Source: Segatella copri
GTDB taxonomy: Bacteria; Bacteroidota; Bacteroidia; Bacteroidales; Bacteroidaceae
Length of the DNA: 64,000 bases
Direction: 5' to 3'
NCBI RefSeq assembly: GCF_026015625.1
Contig: NZ_JAPDVG010000001.1
Location: 2,966,501 to 3,030,500, forward strand
The notes beneath the pieces are model-generated. The model had not been told where the DNA came from. It worked only from the letters and a program-made list of their open reading frames with translations, and made no database searches. A program made the translations under genes and the position numbers. This document shows positions 16,557-61,183 of this stretch, in pieces (within the stretch, counting starts at the first letter, position 1; every line of letters starts with the position of its first letter).

Positions 16557-16624
16557 AAAAGAGCGGAATGGCAACTGGGGTTAACAGAGTTAACAGTTAA
16601 CAGTTGTTTTTCCGCTCTTTCTTT
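16557..16624. repeat. GTTAAC palindromic element E1 (terminator-like)
   Basis: Outer arms AAAGAGCGGAA / TTCCGCTCTTT enclose inner arms CAACTG / CAGTTG and a core with three GTTAAC hexamers. The right arm runs into TTTCTTTTG. It lies just after the flavodiiron gene and probably ends its transcript. Confidence 0.85.
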
Positions 16625-16652
16625 TGTTTTTTAAGGAACTAATCGAAAACTA

Positions 16653-20134: not shown

Positions 20135-20198
20135 AAAGAGCGGAAGAACAGCTGGGGTTAACAGAGTTAACAGTTAACAGCTGATTTTCCGCTCTTTC
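20135..20198. repeat. GTTAAC palindromic element E2 (terminator-like)
   Basis: AAAGAGCGGAA / TTCCGCTCTTT outer arms, CAGCTG / CAGCTG inner arms, three GTTAAC hexamers. It is almost identical to the copy at 23463 and sits between convergent genes. Confidence 0.85.
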
Positions 20199-20205
20199 TT
20201 CTTTT

Positions 20206-22572
20206 TTATTTGATTGCAACCTTTATAATCTTTGATTCTTTAAGATTGCTAACTCTTATAATGTAGATGCCTGGTAATAGTTTCTTGACAGAATGCCAAT
20301 TTTCATCAGCCACAATTTTTCCAGTCTCAACATTATCCCCATTTATGTTGTTGATTCTATATGAGCAGTTTGAGTTGGCTTTGTCTGCAACAGAAACCAT
20401 GATTCCTTTTTGACTATTGAAGTAAATTTGCATTTCTTCAGTATTTTGTTCTGCGTGATTAATCCCTGTCGTGTTCGGTACAGAGAACTCAAAAGTGTCA
20501 CCATATATGGTTTCTTTGCTAGTGGTTGCAAATGTTCGGTATGAATAAGTTGCCCCAGAAATGAGTCCCTTTATTTCTGCTTGCATATATTGCCCTGTAG
20601 ATTCAAGGACAGTCTTGTTTGGGCTTTTTGATGTCCAATATTCAAACCCTTGTTTGGTAATTTTGTCGGAACCACCGATTACGTATCCTGTCAACTTTAT
20701 ACTTTGCTCATTTTGTTCATAGGTAGAAGTAAAAACATCAGGCTTGAAATAAGCGTAAGCGTCTGATGTTCCGAATGCTAACCAATCACCGTAAGTATAG
20801 TCTCCCTTTGCATCTTTGTAGTATGGACGATATTTATAGTATGTGTTTGCACTCAGATTGTTTAGCGTACCAGATAACTTGCCATTGATTACTGGGCATT
20901 CAGAATAGGTGGAAGGAACCAAATCTGGTGCATCATATTTTCGCCATTCAAACCCAATGTTATGTGTAGCATCGCAATTTGTGTTAGCACTTATTCGTGC
21001 GGTTGTATTTGAAACCATGTCCGTTGGTAGATTTTCAAATGTAACACTTGGAGCAAAGAATTCGTATGCATCACTTCTGTAACGTTGCCCTTTAGCATCA
21101 ACTATGAAATAAGCATAGTACGTCTTGCCTGGTACTAAATCTACAAATTTATGTGTTAGTTTATTTGTCCATTTTGTTGTTCCCCAAGCTGTCTTCATAT
21201 CCGAGATTTCCCATCCGCAGCTATCAATATACTGTTCTCCAACATTAAATGTTCCTTTGACAGTGCAACTTGTTGGGGTTATAATAGTTTTCTTACTTAT
21301 TATATATGATCCCGCGGAATTAGTTCCACATATAGTATAGCCAGACATTATGGTATCCCCCTCATAGATGGCATATCCATAGTATTTGCCAAAACTTCCC
21401 CATGGTAAGTCGTTAAACCAAAAGGTACGCCCTTCTTGGTAATTGTAGTTAACTGAAGTGGAAGGGATTCCTTTGGCTATAATTTTATTGTTGGAGATGA
21501 TACCTACTTCTGAAGCCCCTTCGTCAGCGATAACTTCGAATTTGAGAGAGGTATATCCAGTCTCTCGAAGATTAAGATCAACATAAGGGTTGGTTGCAGG
21601 ATAAGTATATACGTTTTGTTTTTCTATATCTCCTTCCTTATAAGTAATTACGACTTCCCTTTCTTTGAAATAGACTCCCTTTAATACCCAAAGGTCGCCT
21701 TCCCAACCTTTCCCTTTAGAAATTAATGTTTTGCCATTGCAGGTTACACTTATAAGTTTTAAAGGTTCGGTATTGGCTTCACTTTTTAAGGTGTCAATAT
21801 ATAGGTAAAGAAATGAACGTTTGTTTTCTGCTTTTGAAACAACAAACCCCGTTTTGCGTCCCTCAAAAATCTTTTCGTTGTTTGTTTTACAGTAAACAGT
21901 ACCGTTTATGTCTTTATATTTTTTGTTGTTGCTATTAATAAAGACATTTTCGAGTAAGTTGGCTCCTTTGAAAGACAAACTATCAATATCTTCAATGTCC
22001 TCACTTATGTAAATGGTACGTAAATCACTTCCAGAGAAGGCGTAGTTGCCGATTTTCTTCACACTTTTTGGCCAGTAAAGTCGTTTGGCGTATAGTTCAT
22101 GATTGTTGTAGTAGGGACAGAATGCGTATCTTAAATCATTACAATAAGTATGATGGTAATAACAGTCGTATCCATTAGGCTTGGGGTAACCTTTATGTTC
22201 GTGTTTGTTTGATATAGAATCTTTCTCCGAGGTGTAGAAATAAGTGTAGTCATATTCTTTTGAGGATTGTTTCTGGTAAGTTTCATAATAGTATTTTTCC
22301 CCCTCTACTAAATAAATATCTGACAAATCAAGAATCTCTAATTTGGTTAGATTTTTTATGACATCAAGATCCTCACTATTAAAAGGACCTGAAACTTTCA
22401 GCTCCGTAATCGAAGCATAGTCTTCTTTTGGAATAAATTGTCTCAAAGTACCACCTTCTGTTAAGGTTACATCTAACAACTTGGCATAGCAAACATTAGT
22501 AAACAACAACATGAGTAATGTAGCAATCAGTTTGAATGATTGATGCCGAATGGAATGTAAATTCGTCTTCAT
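20206..22572 (-). CDS. Secreted surface protein with leucine-rich start, fibronectin-like middle and T9SS-like C-terminus
   Basis: A 788-residue protein with a signal peptide (MKTNLHSIRHQ...VCYA, cut near residue 30). Residues about 55-110 and 170-215 look like BspA-type leucine-rich repeat segments (ITELKVSG, KLEILDLSD, YAFSGSDLRTIYISE). The middle and later parts repeat a beta-sandwich pattern with PGKTYYAYF, ANTYYKYRPYY and SGATYSYRTFA, the fibronectin-III-like edge found in many Bacteroidales surface proteins. The last ~70 residues end LLPGIYIIRVSNLKESKIIKVAIK-like, a type A sorting domain for type IX secretion. It is AT-richer than its neighbours. A structured RNA leader lies upstream on the same strand. 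Confidence 0.8.
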   Translation of the reverse strand: MKTNLHSIRHQSFKLIATLLMLLFTNVCYAKLLDVTLTEGGTLRQFIPKEDYASITELKVSGPFNSEDLDVIKNLTKLEILDLSDIYLVEGEKYYYETYQKQSSKEYDYTYFYTSEKDSISNKHEHKGYPKPNGYDCYYHHTYCNDLRYAFCPYYNNHELYAKRLYWPKSVKKIGNYAFSGSDLRTIYISEDIEDIDSLSFKGANLLENVFINSNNKKYKDINGTVYCKTNNEKIFEGRKTGFVVSKAENKRSFLYLYIDTLKSEANTEPLKLISVTCNGKTLISKGKGWEGDLWVLKGVYFKEREVVITYKEGDIEKQNVYTYPATNPYVDLNLRETGYTSLKFEVIADEGASEVGIISNNKIIAKGIPSTSVNYNYQEGRTFWFNDLPWGSFGKYYGYAIYEGDTIMSGYTICGTNSAGSYIISKKTIITPTSCTVKGTFNVGEQYIDSCGWEISDMKTAWGTTKWTNKLTHKFVDLVPGKTYYAYFIVDAKGQRYRSDAYEFFAPSVTFENLPTDMVSNTTARISANTNCDATHNIGFEWRKYDAPDLVPSTYSECPVINGKLSGTLNNLSANTYYKYRPYYKDAKGDYTYGDWLAFGTSDAYAYFKPDVFTSTYEQNEQSIKLTGYVIGGSDKITKQGFEYWTSKSPNKTVLESTGQYMQAEIKGLISGATYSYRTFATTSKETIYGDTFEFSVPNTTGINHAEQNTEEMQIYFNSQKGIMVSVADKANSNCSYRINNINGDNVETGKIVADENWHSVKKLLPGIYIIRVSNLKESKIIKVAIK

Positions 22573-22621
22573 GTTCAGAAATAAATGCCTAGCTCCTCCT
22601 AATCGGCTATAAATTAATATG

Positions 22622-22870
22622 CAAAAAGCGTGAGGGGCTGTATATTACCTATCCTCTTATCAGGCTTCTCGCATTGCCTACAGAAAGGATAAGCAACAGC
22701 CACCCACGCTAATACGAGTATATAGTTATCCCAAGGGATAGTATATATACATAGCCTGGGCGTTGTTGCTACTCTTCCTTTTCTGTATTCAAACTTTGCG
22801 AGAATTTGATAAGAAGGTCAAGTTTCAATAACGCTCTTCGTTCTAATATGTCTGACGCACATTCGTTTGT
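22622..22870 (-). ncRNA. Structured RNA leader, copy A
   Basis: Transcription should start near 22870 from the minus promoter TACTTTTG. The 3' hairpin pairs 22625-22641 with 22692-22710 (AGCGTGGGTGGCTGT with ACAGCCCCTCACGCT), followed by TTTTTGC, like an intrinsic terminator. The 5' arm of that hairpin can instead pair with 22753-22770 (AGCAACA...GCCCAGGCT) round an AU-rich inner stem, an alternative hairpin. The terminator loop has GGCAATGCGAGAAGCC, also in copy B. The surface-protein gene begins about 50 bases further on and has no other promoter. Confidence 0.75.
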
Positions 22871-22876
22871 CAAGTG

Positions 22877-22884
22877 CAAAAGTA
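22877..22884 (-). promoter_or_regulatory. -7 promoter element of RNA leader A
   Basis: The minus strand reads TACTTTTG, in front of the structured leader and the surface-protein gene. Confidence 0.6.
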
Positions 22885-23005
22885 CGAAAACTTTTTGATT
22901 TTCACGAATGTTTCCTAAAAAACTTTTGATTTTTACGAAATTTATGTTGTCTAAGCGTATAGTCGAATATTCACATTAGTGCTGATGGTTGAGTTTTATG
23001 TTAAG

Positions 23006-23051
23006 AGTTTACTACGCTAACCCCCTTAAAATGTTGTTAGCGTAGTAAACT
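23006..23051. repeat. Perfect 16-bp inverted repeat, copy 1
   Basis: AGTTTACTACGCTAAC and its exact complement are separated by 14 bases and followed by TTTTGCG. A near-copy lies at 23545-23591; the two flank the truncated ATPase gene. Confidence 0.85.
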
Positions 23052-23150
23052 TTTGCGTTTCTAATCTGTCTTATATCTTAACTTTTTGCCTTTAAATTCC
23101 CCAAAAGTATGTTTTTTTTGAGATTTGGGGATTTTGACGACAAAATATTG

Positions 23151-23200: not shown

Positions 23201-23398
23201 ATGAAGTTTTATGATCGGAAAAAGGAGATAGAGATACTGCGCAGGAACTGGGAAAAATCGGCTGAGCATTCCCTTTTCACTGTGATGATAGGCAGAAGGC
23301 GTATCGGAAAGACGCTTCTCTTGCTCAAGACAGAGCAAGAGCAGAAGTGTTTTGCTTGTGTTTTTATTCCCTTACTCCCGATTATGCAGCTTGGTTAA
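23201..23398 (+). pseudogene. Truncated AAA-type ATPase (N-terminal fragment)
   Basis: 65 residues that look like the start of an archaeal-type/AAA ATPase: MKFYDRKKEIEILRRNW, then the Walker A loop MIGRRRIGKTLLLLK. The sequence then loses homology-like character after EQEQKC and stops; a full member would continue for 300 or more residues. The +2 frame gives a short continuation (YSLTPDYAAWLIKRRDFF) that may be the far C-terminus after an internal deletion; this is a guess. The fragment keeps its promoter, sits between two copies of a 16-bp inverted repeat and is followed by GTTAAC element E3. Confidence 0.7.
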
Positions 23399-23462
23399 TC
23401 AAGCGCAGGGATTTTTTTAATTAGTAATTTTGAAATAACTAACTGAGAAAATACTAAAATAA

Positions 23463-23527
23463 AAAGAGCGGAAGAACAGCTTGGGGTTAACAGAGTTAAC
23501 AGTTAACAGCTGATTTTCCGCTCTTTC
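23463..23527. repeat. GTTAAC palindromic element E3
   Basis: Nearly identical to E2 (20135-20198), with AAAGAGCGGAAGAACAGC on the left and GCTGATTTTCCGCTCTTT on the right. It follows the truncated ATPase. Confidence 0.85.
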
Positions 23528-23544
23528 TTCTATAAATATGTAAA

Positions 23545-23591
23545 AGTCTACTACGCTAACGGCTTTAAAAATGGGGTTAGCGTAGTGAACT
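23545..23591. repeat. 16-bp inverted repeat, copy 2
   Basis: AGTCTACTACGCTAAC and GTTAGCGTAGTGAACT, 15 bases apart; differences from copy 1 are single transitions. It lies just past the stop of the minus-strand DUF3843 gene and could terminate it. Confidence 0.8.
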
Positions 23592-23614
23592 TTTTGAGTG
23601 TGCTGAATGCATCT

Positions 23615-35555: not shown

Positions 35556-35576
35556 TTGAGAACCTATAAGAAAAAA

Positions 35577-35636
35577 TAAGAGCGGAAAGCCAGGAGTTAA
35601 CAGGTTAACAGTTAACAGCTGATTTTCCGCTCTTTT
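35577..35636. repeat. GTTAAC palindromic element E4 (terminator-like)
   Basis: AAGAGCGGAAA / TTTCCGCTCTT outer arms with three GTTAAC hexamers and CAGCTGATT, followed by TTTTATA. It lies between the convergent GH2 and S46 genes. Confidence 0.85.
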
Positions 35637-35708
35637 TATATCATCCTGAGACTAATCTTTAGCCCAGGATAAACCATTCTATCATCTCTGTTGATTTAGA
35701 GATAGGAT

Positions 35709-43105: not shown

Positions 43106-43113
43106 TATATTTG
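43106..43113 (+). promoter_or_regulatory. -7 promoter element of RNA leader B
   Basis: TATATTTG with CTTTTG about 20 bases upstream. It drives the structured RNA of 43120-43427. Confidence 0.65.
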
Positions 43114-43119
43114 CCGATG

Positions 43120-43427
43120 ATTCTGAGTAAGGATCACGACATAATGGAAAAGGCGCATACTTAGCGCTTTGTTCTTGACTTTCTGAAACTTCGCAAACTT
43201 CATGCACTGTCAATGAACATAGCAACGGTAGGTGCTCTCGGGATGTGTTAATTCACATCCCTTTACTGGTATGGCTTATTGCGTCAAAGCGATAGGTCTT
43301 ATATCCGTATAGGGAAAAGTGTATACATATCGGCGTGGGCTTCGACGTTGCTCGTTCAACAGTGCAGGGCAATGCGAAGGCCTCAGAGAGTGGGACGAGT
43401 GACAGGTAAGTTCCCACGCTTTTTTAT
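43120..43427 (+). ncRNA. Structured RNA leader, copy B (terminated)
   Basis: The 3' hairpin pairs GCGTGGG (43333) with CCCACGC (43413), followed by a T-run (TTTTTTATTTT), a clear intrinsic terminator. The segment GCTTCGACGT (43339) can instead pair with GCGTCAAAGC (43281), so two folds compete. The loop has GGCAATGCGAAGGCC (43368), shared with copy A, and upstream CTTGACTTTCT and TCGCAAACTT match copy A too. An extra hairpin GGGATGTG / CACATCCC is at 43238-43260. The next gene (43632) has a promoter of its own at 43588, so this copy may be a free small RNA. Confidence 0.78.
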
Positions 43428-43587
43428 TTTGCCGAAACCGAAATCTTAACCCGCCAAGTCTCGGGAACACCTGGCAAAATGATAATATACCAATGAAACA
43501 GAACGATTTTTACTACTTTTGTTAAGCCGAAATCAAGAAATTTCGCTTATGAACCATTATGGACTTGATAGTGTCAAGTAGAATCAC

Positions 43588-43595
43588 TATCTTTG
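43588..43595 (+). promoter_or_regulatory. -7 promoter element of the 201-aa gene
   Basis: TATCTTTG, 37 bases before the ATG. Confidence 0.6.
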
Positions 43596-43631
43596 TCCCC
43601 GACATTTAATAACTTTAAAATAGAATAGCGT

Positions 43632-44237
43632 ATGAAACATGTAAATGCTTATCCTTTTGTTGGTAAGGATTACGAGAAAGGATTCTTGAATAGTGGCAAG
43701 AAAGTGTTGTTGTTAGGACTAAGCCATTATAATGAAGAAAATGCTGGTGCTCCTTGTCACCATACATTTACTCAAGAAATTGTGGACGGTTTTGTAAGTG
43801 GTGAAGATGCCTCTTTCTATAGAGGCTATACTAGCCAAACAAAGGCTTTGTTGAACAGGGAAATATCTGTAGATGATAGAGAATGCGTTTGGAATCAACT
43901 TGCTTTTTACAATTTTATTCAGTTCAATATAGCAAGACCAGGTGTAAAGGATACTTCTGACGAGTTTAATAGCTCTGTTTCGGCATTCAAGGAAATTCTT
44001 GAAGAGTTGAAACCTGATGTTATCATAACTTGGGGTTATGGTCTCTTCAATAGACTTTATCCTCTTGGCGAGAAAGATGGTGAGAAACTGTTTCTGGCTA
44101 ATGGTGATGAGGTTAATACTCGTTGGTTTAGCACTGGCGGCGAAGATAAGGCTCTTATGATTCGCCAGCGTCATCCTTCTCGTGGATATTCTTGGCGAGA
44201 ATGGGCTAAGGTTTATCAAGATTTGTTTGACAAATAG
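43632..44237 (+). CDS. Conserved hypothetical protein (possible uracil-DNA-glycosylase-like fold)
   Basis: A 201-residue soluble protein. Early residues KKVLLLGLSHYNEENAGAP (about 23-41) and later KPDVIITWGYGLFNRL (about 128-143) followed by RQRHPSRGYSW (about 178-188) recall the strand-loop pattern of the uracil-DNA-glycosylase superfamily, where a late HPS motif is common; this is a tentative reading. AT-rich. It starts a three-gene cluster with a zinc-ribbon protein (6 bases apart) and a TonB-C protein (12 bases apart). Confidence 0.6.
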   Translation: MKHVNAYPFVGKDYEKGFLNSGKKVLLLGLSHYNEENAGAPCHHTFTQEIVDGFVSGEDASFYRGYTSQTKALLNREISVDDRECVWNQLAFYNFIQFNIARPGVKDTSDEFNSSVSAFKEILEELKPDVIITWGYGLFNRLYPLGEKDGEKLFLANGDEVNTRWFSTGGEDKALMIRQRHPSRGYSWREWAKVYQDLFDK

Positions 44238-60418: not shown

Positions 60419-61183
60419 CTATTCCCAAGTTAAAGTGTAAACTTCTGGGCTACCAGAATCATATTGGTTCTTTTTCTCGGTTTCGGTTATCTTTACAGGA
60501 TAGCCATCTCCATCAAGTTCGTATGTATAAGAAAGTGTATATCCTTCACTATCTGTAACGCTCTTTAATAGGTTCTTGTTGTTGAGACCAAACAAGGTTG
60601 GATGAGCCATAATAAGAAGATTACCATATTCCGCTAAAATCGCATCATCGAATCCTAGTGCATCAACATCAAAGACAGAATGCTTGTTAGGCATATCGGT
60701 ATAATAAGTACAGTTATAGGTGTTACCTTCACTAACTTCTTTGTAATTTACGATATTACCATTCTCCCATGTATATTTGTTGATATTGTAGCCAGTAATT
60801 TGAGAAAGATAGTTTCCCGAATAGGCAGCCTTATATGTCTCTTCACCATCAGTAGCTTTTGAGATTTTTCCATTATCAAGAGTAATAGTACAAGGGTTCT
60901 CATCCCATCTAGCATGAGTTGTAAGCGTGATAGTGTTACCCGACCAATCAAGGTTTATGTATTCAGAATTTCCATTTACGTTTCTTGAAGCTCTAGTGAG
61001 TTTACCATCTTCTCCATAAGTAAAGTTTATGGTCTCATATTTACTACTGATGCGTACAAGTTTCTTGCCACTTGTAATGCTACCACCACCATTGTTATCA
61101 TCATCATCGCTGCTACAAGCAACGAATCCAATTGACATAATCATAGCAAAGATTGCCATTGCTAAAAATTTGAATTGTTTCAT
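60419..61183 (-). CDS. Lipoprotein with DUF4595-like repeats
   Basis: A 254-residue predicted outer-membrane or surface lipoprotein. Signal and lipobox: MKQFKFLAMAIFAMIMSIGFVACSS, with Cys about residue 23 followed by SSDDDDNNGGG, a typical Bacteroidales lipoprotein-export tail. The mature part repeats short beta pairs such as NFTYGEDGKLTRASR, TITLDNGKISKA, LSYTYELDGDGYPVKI, which matches the DUF4595-type beta scaffold. Function unknown. It lies behind the structured RNA leader copy C. Confidence 0.75.
   Translation of the reverse strand: MKQFKFLAMAIFAMIMSIGFVACSSDDDDNNGGGSITSGKKLVRISSKYETINFTYGEDGKLTRASRNVNGNSEYINLDWSGNTITLTTHARWDENPCTITLDNGKISKATDGEETYKAAYSGNYLSQITGYNINKYTWENGNIVNYKEVSEGNTYNCTYYTDMPNKHSVFDVDALGFDDAILAEYGNLLIMAHPTLFGLNNKNLLKSVTDSEGYTLSYTYELDGDGYPVKITETEKKNQYDSGSPEVYTLTWE

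Follow-up and report, generated by a model that had tools for sequence, protein, structure and literature searches.

A probable bistable attenuator leader recurring before accessory surface-protein genes in Bacteroidales

Bacteroidales are major gut bacteria and, to our knowledge, few cis-acting RNA switches have been described in them. The window analyzed here, i.e., the whole 64-kb stretch of DNA, raises the question of whether the leader of one of its surface-protein genes is such a switch and, if so, whether it belongs to a known class. The initial annotation had proposed a promoter followed by a T-tailed hairpin that competes with an upstream hairpin with AGCAACA/TGTTGCT arms, and all of these parts were present before the gene, on the minus strand. 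The leader (hereafter copy A) runs from a Bacteroidetes -7 box (TACTTTTG, 22884-22877, of the TAnnTTTG form that recurs among the elements) through 22573, ~300 nt from the -7 box to the start codon. The two arms lie at 22770-22764 and 22698-22692, and the T-tailed partner CCTCACGC-TTTTT lies at 22635-22623. Its fold had a z score of -6.2, with 0 of 100 shuffles equally stable. The gene that follows (20206..22572, minus strand) encodes a 788-aa secreted BspA-type leucine-rich repeat (LRR) protein with a signal-like N terminus (PF13306, E 5e-8). A block that had been said to recur, GGCAATGCGA at 22678-22669, was found again at 43368 on the plus strand within a second copy (copy B), and this 10-mer alone is not significant in 64 kb (seven matches with at most one mismatch versus 4.3 expected; 16 of 100 shuffles had as many).

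The multicopy family that had been suspected proved to be large. When 100 related genomes were searched at the DNA level, 30 loci came up, of which an A+B profile accepted 14 as true members, and an exact pattern (segment 2, GTTGC, and GGCAATGCGA, the last two being fixed by the pattern in the loci so found) returned at least 117 stretches from a species-genome collection. Among the 117 matches listed, 113 were Bacteroidales by record title, including Bacteroides, Phocaeicola, Paraprevotella, Prevotella, Xylanibacter, Barnesiella, Parabacteroides, Paludibacteraceae, and Duncaniella and other Muribaculaceae, and four were metagenome bins labeled Clostridia or Firmicutes. The elements compared were 206 distinct ones (from 210 records, copies A and B among them) plus a third copy from the window (copy C), 207 in all. 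A covariance model of 96 positions (R1) was built from 60 relatives, with copies A and B in the training set and copy C outside it. On the window, the E values were 3.7e-20 for copy B, 1.2e-12 for copy A, and 9.5e-4 for copy C (61351-61269, minus strand). In the nearest genus, the model matched 84 of 120 genomes at E ≤ 0.001, and single genomes had as many as 11 copies; for the order, the figures were 37 of 198 genomes and as many as 12 copies. When 296 genomes were drawn from across the phylum, the nearest genome itself was the only one matched, at 1e-5. These genus, order, and phylum-wide counts leave no clear case outside Bacteroidales and a patchy distribution within the order. Carriers available in culture include Duncaniella muris DSM 103720, Paraprevotella clara YIT 11840, Xylanibacter rarus 109, and Prevotellamassilia timonensis Marseille-P2831T.

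The terminator half of the proposed switch was assessed in an alignment of 60 members. Of its cells, 99.8% were paired for the helix between segments 2 and 3 (2:3), 86.6% for c:d, and 94.4% for the terminator-state pairs taken together, compared with 39-57% for slid controls. Changes on both sides of a pair occurred in 70 cells versus 23 in shuffles, and G-U pairs were frequent, which favors RNA over DNA. In copy A, segment 2 (AGCGTGGGT, including AGCGTGGG at 22710-22703) occupies 22702..22710, and segment 3 with its U-run (CAGCCCCTCACGC-TTTTT), placed by the alignment and the covariance model, occupies 22623..22640, both on the minus strand. A T-run ended all 60 aligned rows and followed segment 3 in 125 of 132 elements, a presence owed in part to selection, since the pattern locating segment 3 included T's. 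By computation, then, a terminator hairpin with a U-run, the latter partly selected for, stands between promoter and gene. The 132 elements were what remained of 134 after one had failed the segment-2 pattern and one near-duplicate had been removed; five had no P3a anchor and seven no segment-3 anchor, so that the strand-swapping tests on this set had 121-127 rows.

To compare pairing without an alignment, the duplex energy of an element's own strands was set against that of the same strand with partners from other elements. For the region of helices P5/P6, the putative antiterminator, the own energy was -21.7 versus -18.65 after swapping, and the own partner was better in 109 of 127 elements. 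Segment 1, the 5' strand of this antiterminator (GCCCAGGCTA, 22752..22761, minus strand, in copy A), pairs with the same segment 2 that serves the terminator, as GCTCACG:CGTGGGC in distant members and as GCCC:GGGC elsewhere. Swapping the strands of 2:3 (-14.4 versus -13.95) or 1:2 (-11.4 versus -11.0) barely mattered, because both are so conserved. The compensatory changes looked for in both competing stems were thus borne out by the both-side changes of the terminator state and by the P5/P6 region, whereas the 1:2 core alone was only weakly own-specific. A competing pairing that co-varies was seen in the P5/P6 region and again, by eye, in copy C, where segments 1, 2, and 3 have been altered jointly (GCTCATGC, GCATGGGC, and CCCATGC). 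These results agree with the cis-acting terminator/antiterminator leader that the initial annotation had put forward.

Further helices, which that annotation had not described, connect the 5' and 3' parts of the leader. From 5' to 3', the elements are ordered e, a, x, P3a, z, b, f/segment 1, a variable apical stem, segment 2, c, z', P3b, x', d, segment 3, U-run, segment 4, and start codon, and a TAnnTTTG box lies 60-190 nt upstream of P3a in 105 of 125 elements, compared with 8.5 expected from shuffles. In copy A (all on the minus strand), the local stem e:f is formed by GAGCGTTATTG (22826..22836) and CAACAACGC (22760..22768), and the local stem a:b by arms of approximate extent at 22811..22822 and 22771..22782. 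The long-range helix P2 joins x (CCTTCTTATCA, 22807..22817) to x' (TGATAAGAGG, 22653..22662), and the long-range helix P4 joins z (TACAGAAAAGG, 22777..22787) to z' (CCTTTCTGTA, 22679..22688). Between them, P3 joins P3a (TTCTCGCA, 22797..22804), in the loop of the local hairpin P3', to P3b (TGCGAGAA, 22666..22673), in the loop of the small hairpin P8.

The two local stems and the three long-range helices all weakened when partners were taken from other copies. The effect was greatest for x:x' (own -11.9 versus swapped -4.3 kcal/mol; own better in 125 of 127) and z:z' (-10.1 versus -3.3 kcal/mol; 124 of 127). For a:b, the energies were -10.7 and -8.7 (101 of 127), and for e:f, they were -10.8 and -8.95 kcal/mol (133 of 166, p 2.6e-18), 31 of 197 elements having been left out of the e:f test because the e motif was absent or at another distance. 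The own partner was also better for c:d in 113 of 125 elements and for the arms of the P3' hairpin in 111 of 127. Own and swapped energies did not differ for the control pairs x:z', z:x', a:c, and b:d, as well as for segment 2 with segment 4, an upstream 10-mer with segment 4, and e with z-b. For e with segment 2, also a control, a gap of 0.02 kcal was enough for p 1.8e-3, and energy differences as small as this are therefore not to be read. When partners were swapped among the paralogues of a single genome (15 of 19, four having no anchor), the own partner was better in 15 of 15 for both x:x' and z:z' and in 12 of 15 for a:b; the P3 row of this comparison is circular, since P3a is located by its own complement. 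As the same-genome swaps gave the same result, the co-variation of x:x' and z:z' is not caused by lineage.

In close relatives, P3 is nearly always TCGCA:TGCGA, with complementary substitutes elsewhere. Among the 30 elements with a loop other than TGCGA (two of these records, L184 and L216, being one locus), 29 had a Watson-Crick match of at least 7 in their own upstream part, against a background of 68 of 870 for swapped and 63 of 1500 for shuffled sequences. In 28 of the 30, copy C included, the compensation was in place, behind a conserved AA and with at least 7 Watson-Crick pairs; the exceptions were L206, whose stretch was out of place, and L203, with only 5 pairs. A looser count gave 207 of 210 records and is not relied on, because it allows G-U pairs and any place.

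Three other structural proposals were set aside. A single continuous rod (strands a:d and b:c), an idea taken from distant members, was not own-specific (p 0.98 and 1.0), the energies for b:c with GUUGC included being -12.16 and -11.85 (p 0.015). A local P1 hairpin as a general element was weak (p 3.6e-5) and unsupported in 21 distant members and paralogues (p 0.51), and e:f was kept. The RNAalifold consensus of one alignment (A3), which paired GUUGC with GCAAU, was given no weight, since those letters were fixed by the search pattern.

A fourth segment, likewise beyond the initial annotation, lies by the start codon. After the U-run there is a small hairpin whose arms were own-specific in 41 of 54 elements (p 3.8e-7) and whose loop holds segment 4, complementary to segment 3. 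The own 3:4 pairing was better in 98 of 125 elements, in 67 of 88 with a start codon in range, and in 10 of 15 same-genome swaps (p 0.06). At least 6 contiguous pairs were present in only 55 of the 88, and in these 55, the median gap from the end of segment 4 to the start codon was 26 nt, with 10th and 90th percentiles of 21 and 44. In copy A, the hairpin (GGAGGAGCT, 22586..22610, minus strand) is directly 5' of the start codon, and 3:4 has only 4 contiguous pairs. Transcription reaches segment 4 only past the terminator, so 3:4 comes too late to govern termination and should instead act on translation initiation or on the stability of the read-through RNA. This late synthesis, together with the co-variation of 3:4 at such a distance from the start codon, would also suit a purely translational riboregulator, in which 2:3 is no terminator and merely hides segment 3 from segment 4. 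We regard that as quite unlikely, given that the T-run after segment 3 in nearly all elements is as expected for an intrinsic terminator, even though the pattern asked for T's.

Nearly all of the copies examined have kept matching strands of their own, which makes a real on/off control very likely, and the four-segment chain (1:2, 2:3, 3:4) implies that transcription is attenuated and that a second level of control operates at translation initiation. On the strength of the sequence comparisons, we put at roughly three in four the probability that the element serves a protein gene as its 5' leader RNA and belongs to a large Bacteroidales family of bistable attenuators. In the proposed mechanism, the segments would alternate, with 1:2 as the antiterminator, 2:3 as the intrinsic terminator followed by U's, and 3:4 forming at the hairpin loop ~26 nt before the start codon. 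Two mutually exclusive sets of helices would result: 2:3, whose stem with its U-run would end transcription, or 1:2 plus 3:4, with read-through and the start region engaged, 3:4 then acting on translation. The choice would be set by the 5' domain (e:f, a:b, and the P3' hairpin) and a 3' hairpin (c:d and P8), whose loops are complementary over ~20 nt (x:x', P3, and z:z'). These loops could kiss via P3 and extend into x:x' and z:z', and the long duplex should favor 1:2. For steric reasons, neither local stem seems able to coexist with such a duplex, which would give two states, the helices of both co-varying. A ligand, a protein, or an elongation-rate signal may shift the balance.

Several known systems resemble parts of this design. 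Leaders of the trp type have alternating 1-2-3-4 segments and a terminator with a U-run, and both are found here. In the present element, however, the U-run follows 2:3, which makes 2:3 the terminator and places 3:4 near the start codon, and a terminator formed by 3:4, as in the trp type, was not found; in addition, the element has a large 5' domain and a long-range loop pairing. The same alternation of segments could point to a ribosome-mediated attenuator with a leader peptide, but no conserved leader peptide was seen among the ATG frames of 127 leaders. The longest of these frames vary widely (median 45 codons, with 6 of 127 under 8), and sampled peptides look unrelated, so that we hold this possibility to be very remote. 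Complementary hairpin loops kiss in CopA-CopT and RNAI-RNAII, as those of the element could before extending into a duplex; here, however, the two loops are in one molecule and would drive the choice of terminator. Metabolite riboswitches and T-box leaders also have a large 5' domain, a switchable terminator, and several copies per genome, as the element does, but no Rfam riboswitch or T-box model exceeded its threshold on the element, and the genes that it precedes are diverse, many of them secreted, rather than of one pathway.

The other two copies in the window differ in what follows them. Copy C (61510-61190, minus strand; promoter box TAAATTTG at 61510-61503, switch domain 61351-61269, segment 4 GGGGATT at 61225-61219) precedes the gene (60419..61183, minus strand) for a 254-aa putative lipoprotein. 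By eye, P3 (TCTGGAC/GTCCAGA), x:x', z:z', 1:2, 2:3, and 3:4 are all readable in it with altered letters. Copy B (43106-43480, plus strand; promoter box TATATTTG at 43106-43113, U-run 43420-43425, segment-4 hairpin 43453-43475) has a fold z score of -7.5, with 0 of 100 shuffles equally stable, and directly 3' of it are only tiny frames and no obvious gene of its own. Copy B may be an orphaned leader or trans-acting. After it (43425-43632), the next gene (43632-44237, 201 aa, no Pfam family) comes with a promoter-like box of its own (TACTTTTG, 43514-43521); by eye, the start of this gene resembles those of the first genes after two other leaders, L116 and L126, and the three are perhaps one unannotated family. 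Copy B, together with the promoter box and U-run of most copies, is what one would expect if the element were a stand-alone, trans-acting small RNA of ~300 nt, complete with promoter and terminator, and the adjoining gene were incidental. We consider this unlikely, since in relatives the start codon lies at a narrow distance and segment 4, which is beyond the U-run, fits the segment 3 of its own locus better than those of other loci.

That distance was measured in 105 frames: from 134 elements, 121 had a downstream frame and 105 of these were within the length and distance limits. The frame started a median of 119 nt after GGCAATGCGA, within 95-140 nt in 72 of the 105, and the order promoter, element, U-run, gene recurs among relatives. 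The 105 proteins included LRR_5 in eight cases, LytTR in four, HTH_26 in two, and Big_2 in two, and five frames matched TIGR04117, a Cys-repeat radical-SAM target family. Consistent with the idea of accessory surface genes, secreted-looking proteins were enriched downstream, accounting for 40 of 52 proteins of at least 200 aa versus 155 of 333 other frames (p 3e-5), as scored by a crude hydrophobicity rule with a background from the named-genome loci only. In a genome with 12 copies, 10 of the 12 genes begin, by eye, with a signal, lipoprotein, or membrane-like sequence. As no single pathway is found among the genes, they do not name a ligand. Leaders also stand before short Tat-like, Cys-rich peptides at six loci (L013, L067, L076, L080, L140, and L219), with three such genes in a row at L013. 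One of the 105 frames (alignment A4) matches EF-Tu and is possibly misassigned.

Whether the element is already known was addressed in Rfam and in the literature. Over the gathering threshold, no Rfam family fell on the element in the 64-kb window and five loci, the only match being FopS (RF04319), elsewhere on one locus. When matches up to E 10 were admitted, the three copies in the window gave only sub-gathering ones, mostly to microRNA models. The strongest were to mir-568, which scored 40.9 bits against a required 75 (E 8.7e-6) on copy C, and to MIR1435, with 29.8 of the 94 bits needed on copy A. The Bacteroidales-1 motif (RF01693), to which the initial annotation had thought the element might belong, is listed by Weinberg 2010 (PMC2864571) as a structured RNA whose role in cis-regulation is uncertain. 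Its model has 179 positions, and it occurs in the same order and the same genomes as the element. Membership was nevertheless rejected: in four of four carrier genomes tested, RF01693 had one copy, at another position, and it was absent from the window at the gathering threshold and from copies A, B, and C at E ≤ 10. FopS, a Bacteroidetes family of paralogous small RNAs, is alike in being paralogous in Bacteroidales but is 71 nt long, and its match (L041:4062-4129), though it shares a contig with a leader, lies off the element at a distance of ~4 kb. Among titles and abstracts on leaders, riboswitches, and attenuators of Bacteroidales, Bacteroides, or Prevotella, none describes the element, and a word search of PMC8632094 and PMC11109978 found no mention of Bacteroid*, Prevotella, Porphyromonas, leucine-rich, or lipoprotein. 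The element could already be an unnamed entry in supplementary candidate lists or preprints. With no Rfam family over threshold and no description in titles or abstracts, it seems to represent a new class of RNA, an attenuator leader in kind, with an unusual loop-loop and start-codon design, in line with the earlier suggestion that it was perhaps undescribed.

More tentatively, and with odds that we place somewhat below even, the element may represent a new class of riboswitch-like RNA that is ancient in Bacteroidales. A kissing contact between two hairpin loops of the same nascent transcript, extended through x:x', P3, and z:z', would decide between the terminator and a fold with 3:4 paired near the start codon. 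Up to 12 leaders per genome would then answer to one signal, forming a regulon of accessory surface proteins and LytTR/HTH regulators, with private pairings avoiding cross-talk. The element is large, widespread, multicopy, and tied to surface proteins, and every helix is open to compensatory mutants. If it is truly such a switch, it would offer a common handle on how accessory surface genes are turned on and off in these gut bacteria, and a signal newly found to be sensed by RNA may come to light.

Matches also turned up in mobile DNA. One of two viral-contig matches, on an IMG/VR contig (L149), was a real-looking copy; the other (L148) was not and was left out of the comparison. A plasmid record, OY725995.1 (Phocaeicola massiliensis), holds an unannotated 71%-identical stretch, and two short, weak, unannotated matches were found in phage records. 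From L149 and OY725995.1, occasional mobility is possible. A phage or plasmid cassette was rejected, as there were just the one plasmid stretch and the two short phage matches, all unannotated. That the element is itself a palindromic, MITE-like mobile element or a DNA-level recombination site is highly improbable: it does form a long imperfect inverted repeat in many copies, with single matches in viral and plasmid records and the two weak ones in phage records, but the copies within a genome are divergent and have private compensated stems, and most copies keep their promoter box, U-run, and gene orientation, with many G-U pairs.

A fourth R1 match in the window, at 35578 (E 0.72), was rejected as a copy because it overlaps a repeated intergenic hairpin. 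This 73-nt hairpin, perhaps a repeated terminator, occurs four times, at 16558-16630, 20135-20207, 23464-23536, and 35573-35645. Two further hairpins, which resemble each other and surround TACTACGCTAAC, lie at 23002-23070 and 23541-23600 and flank a short frame (23202-23400) that we take to resemble the start of an AAA-type ATPase gene.
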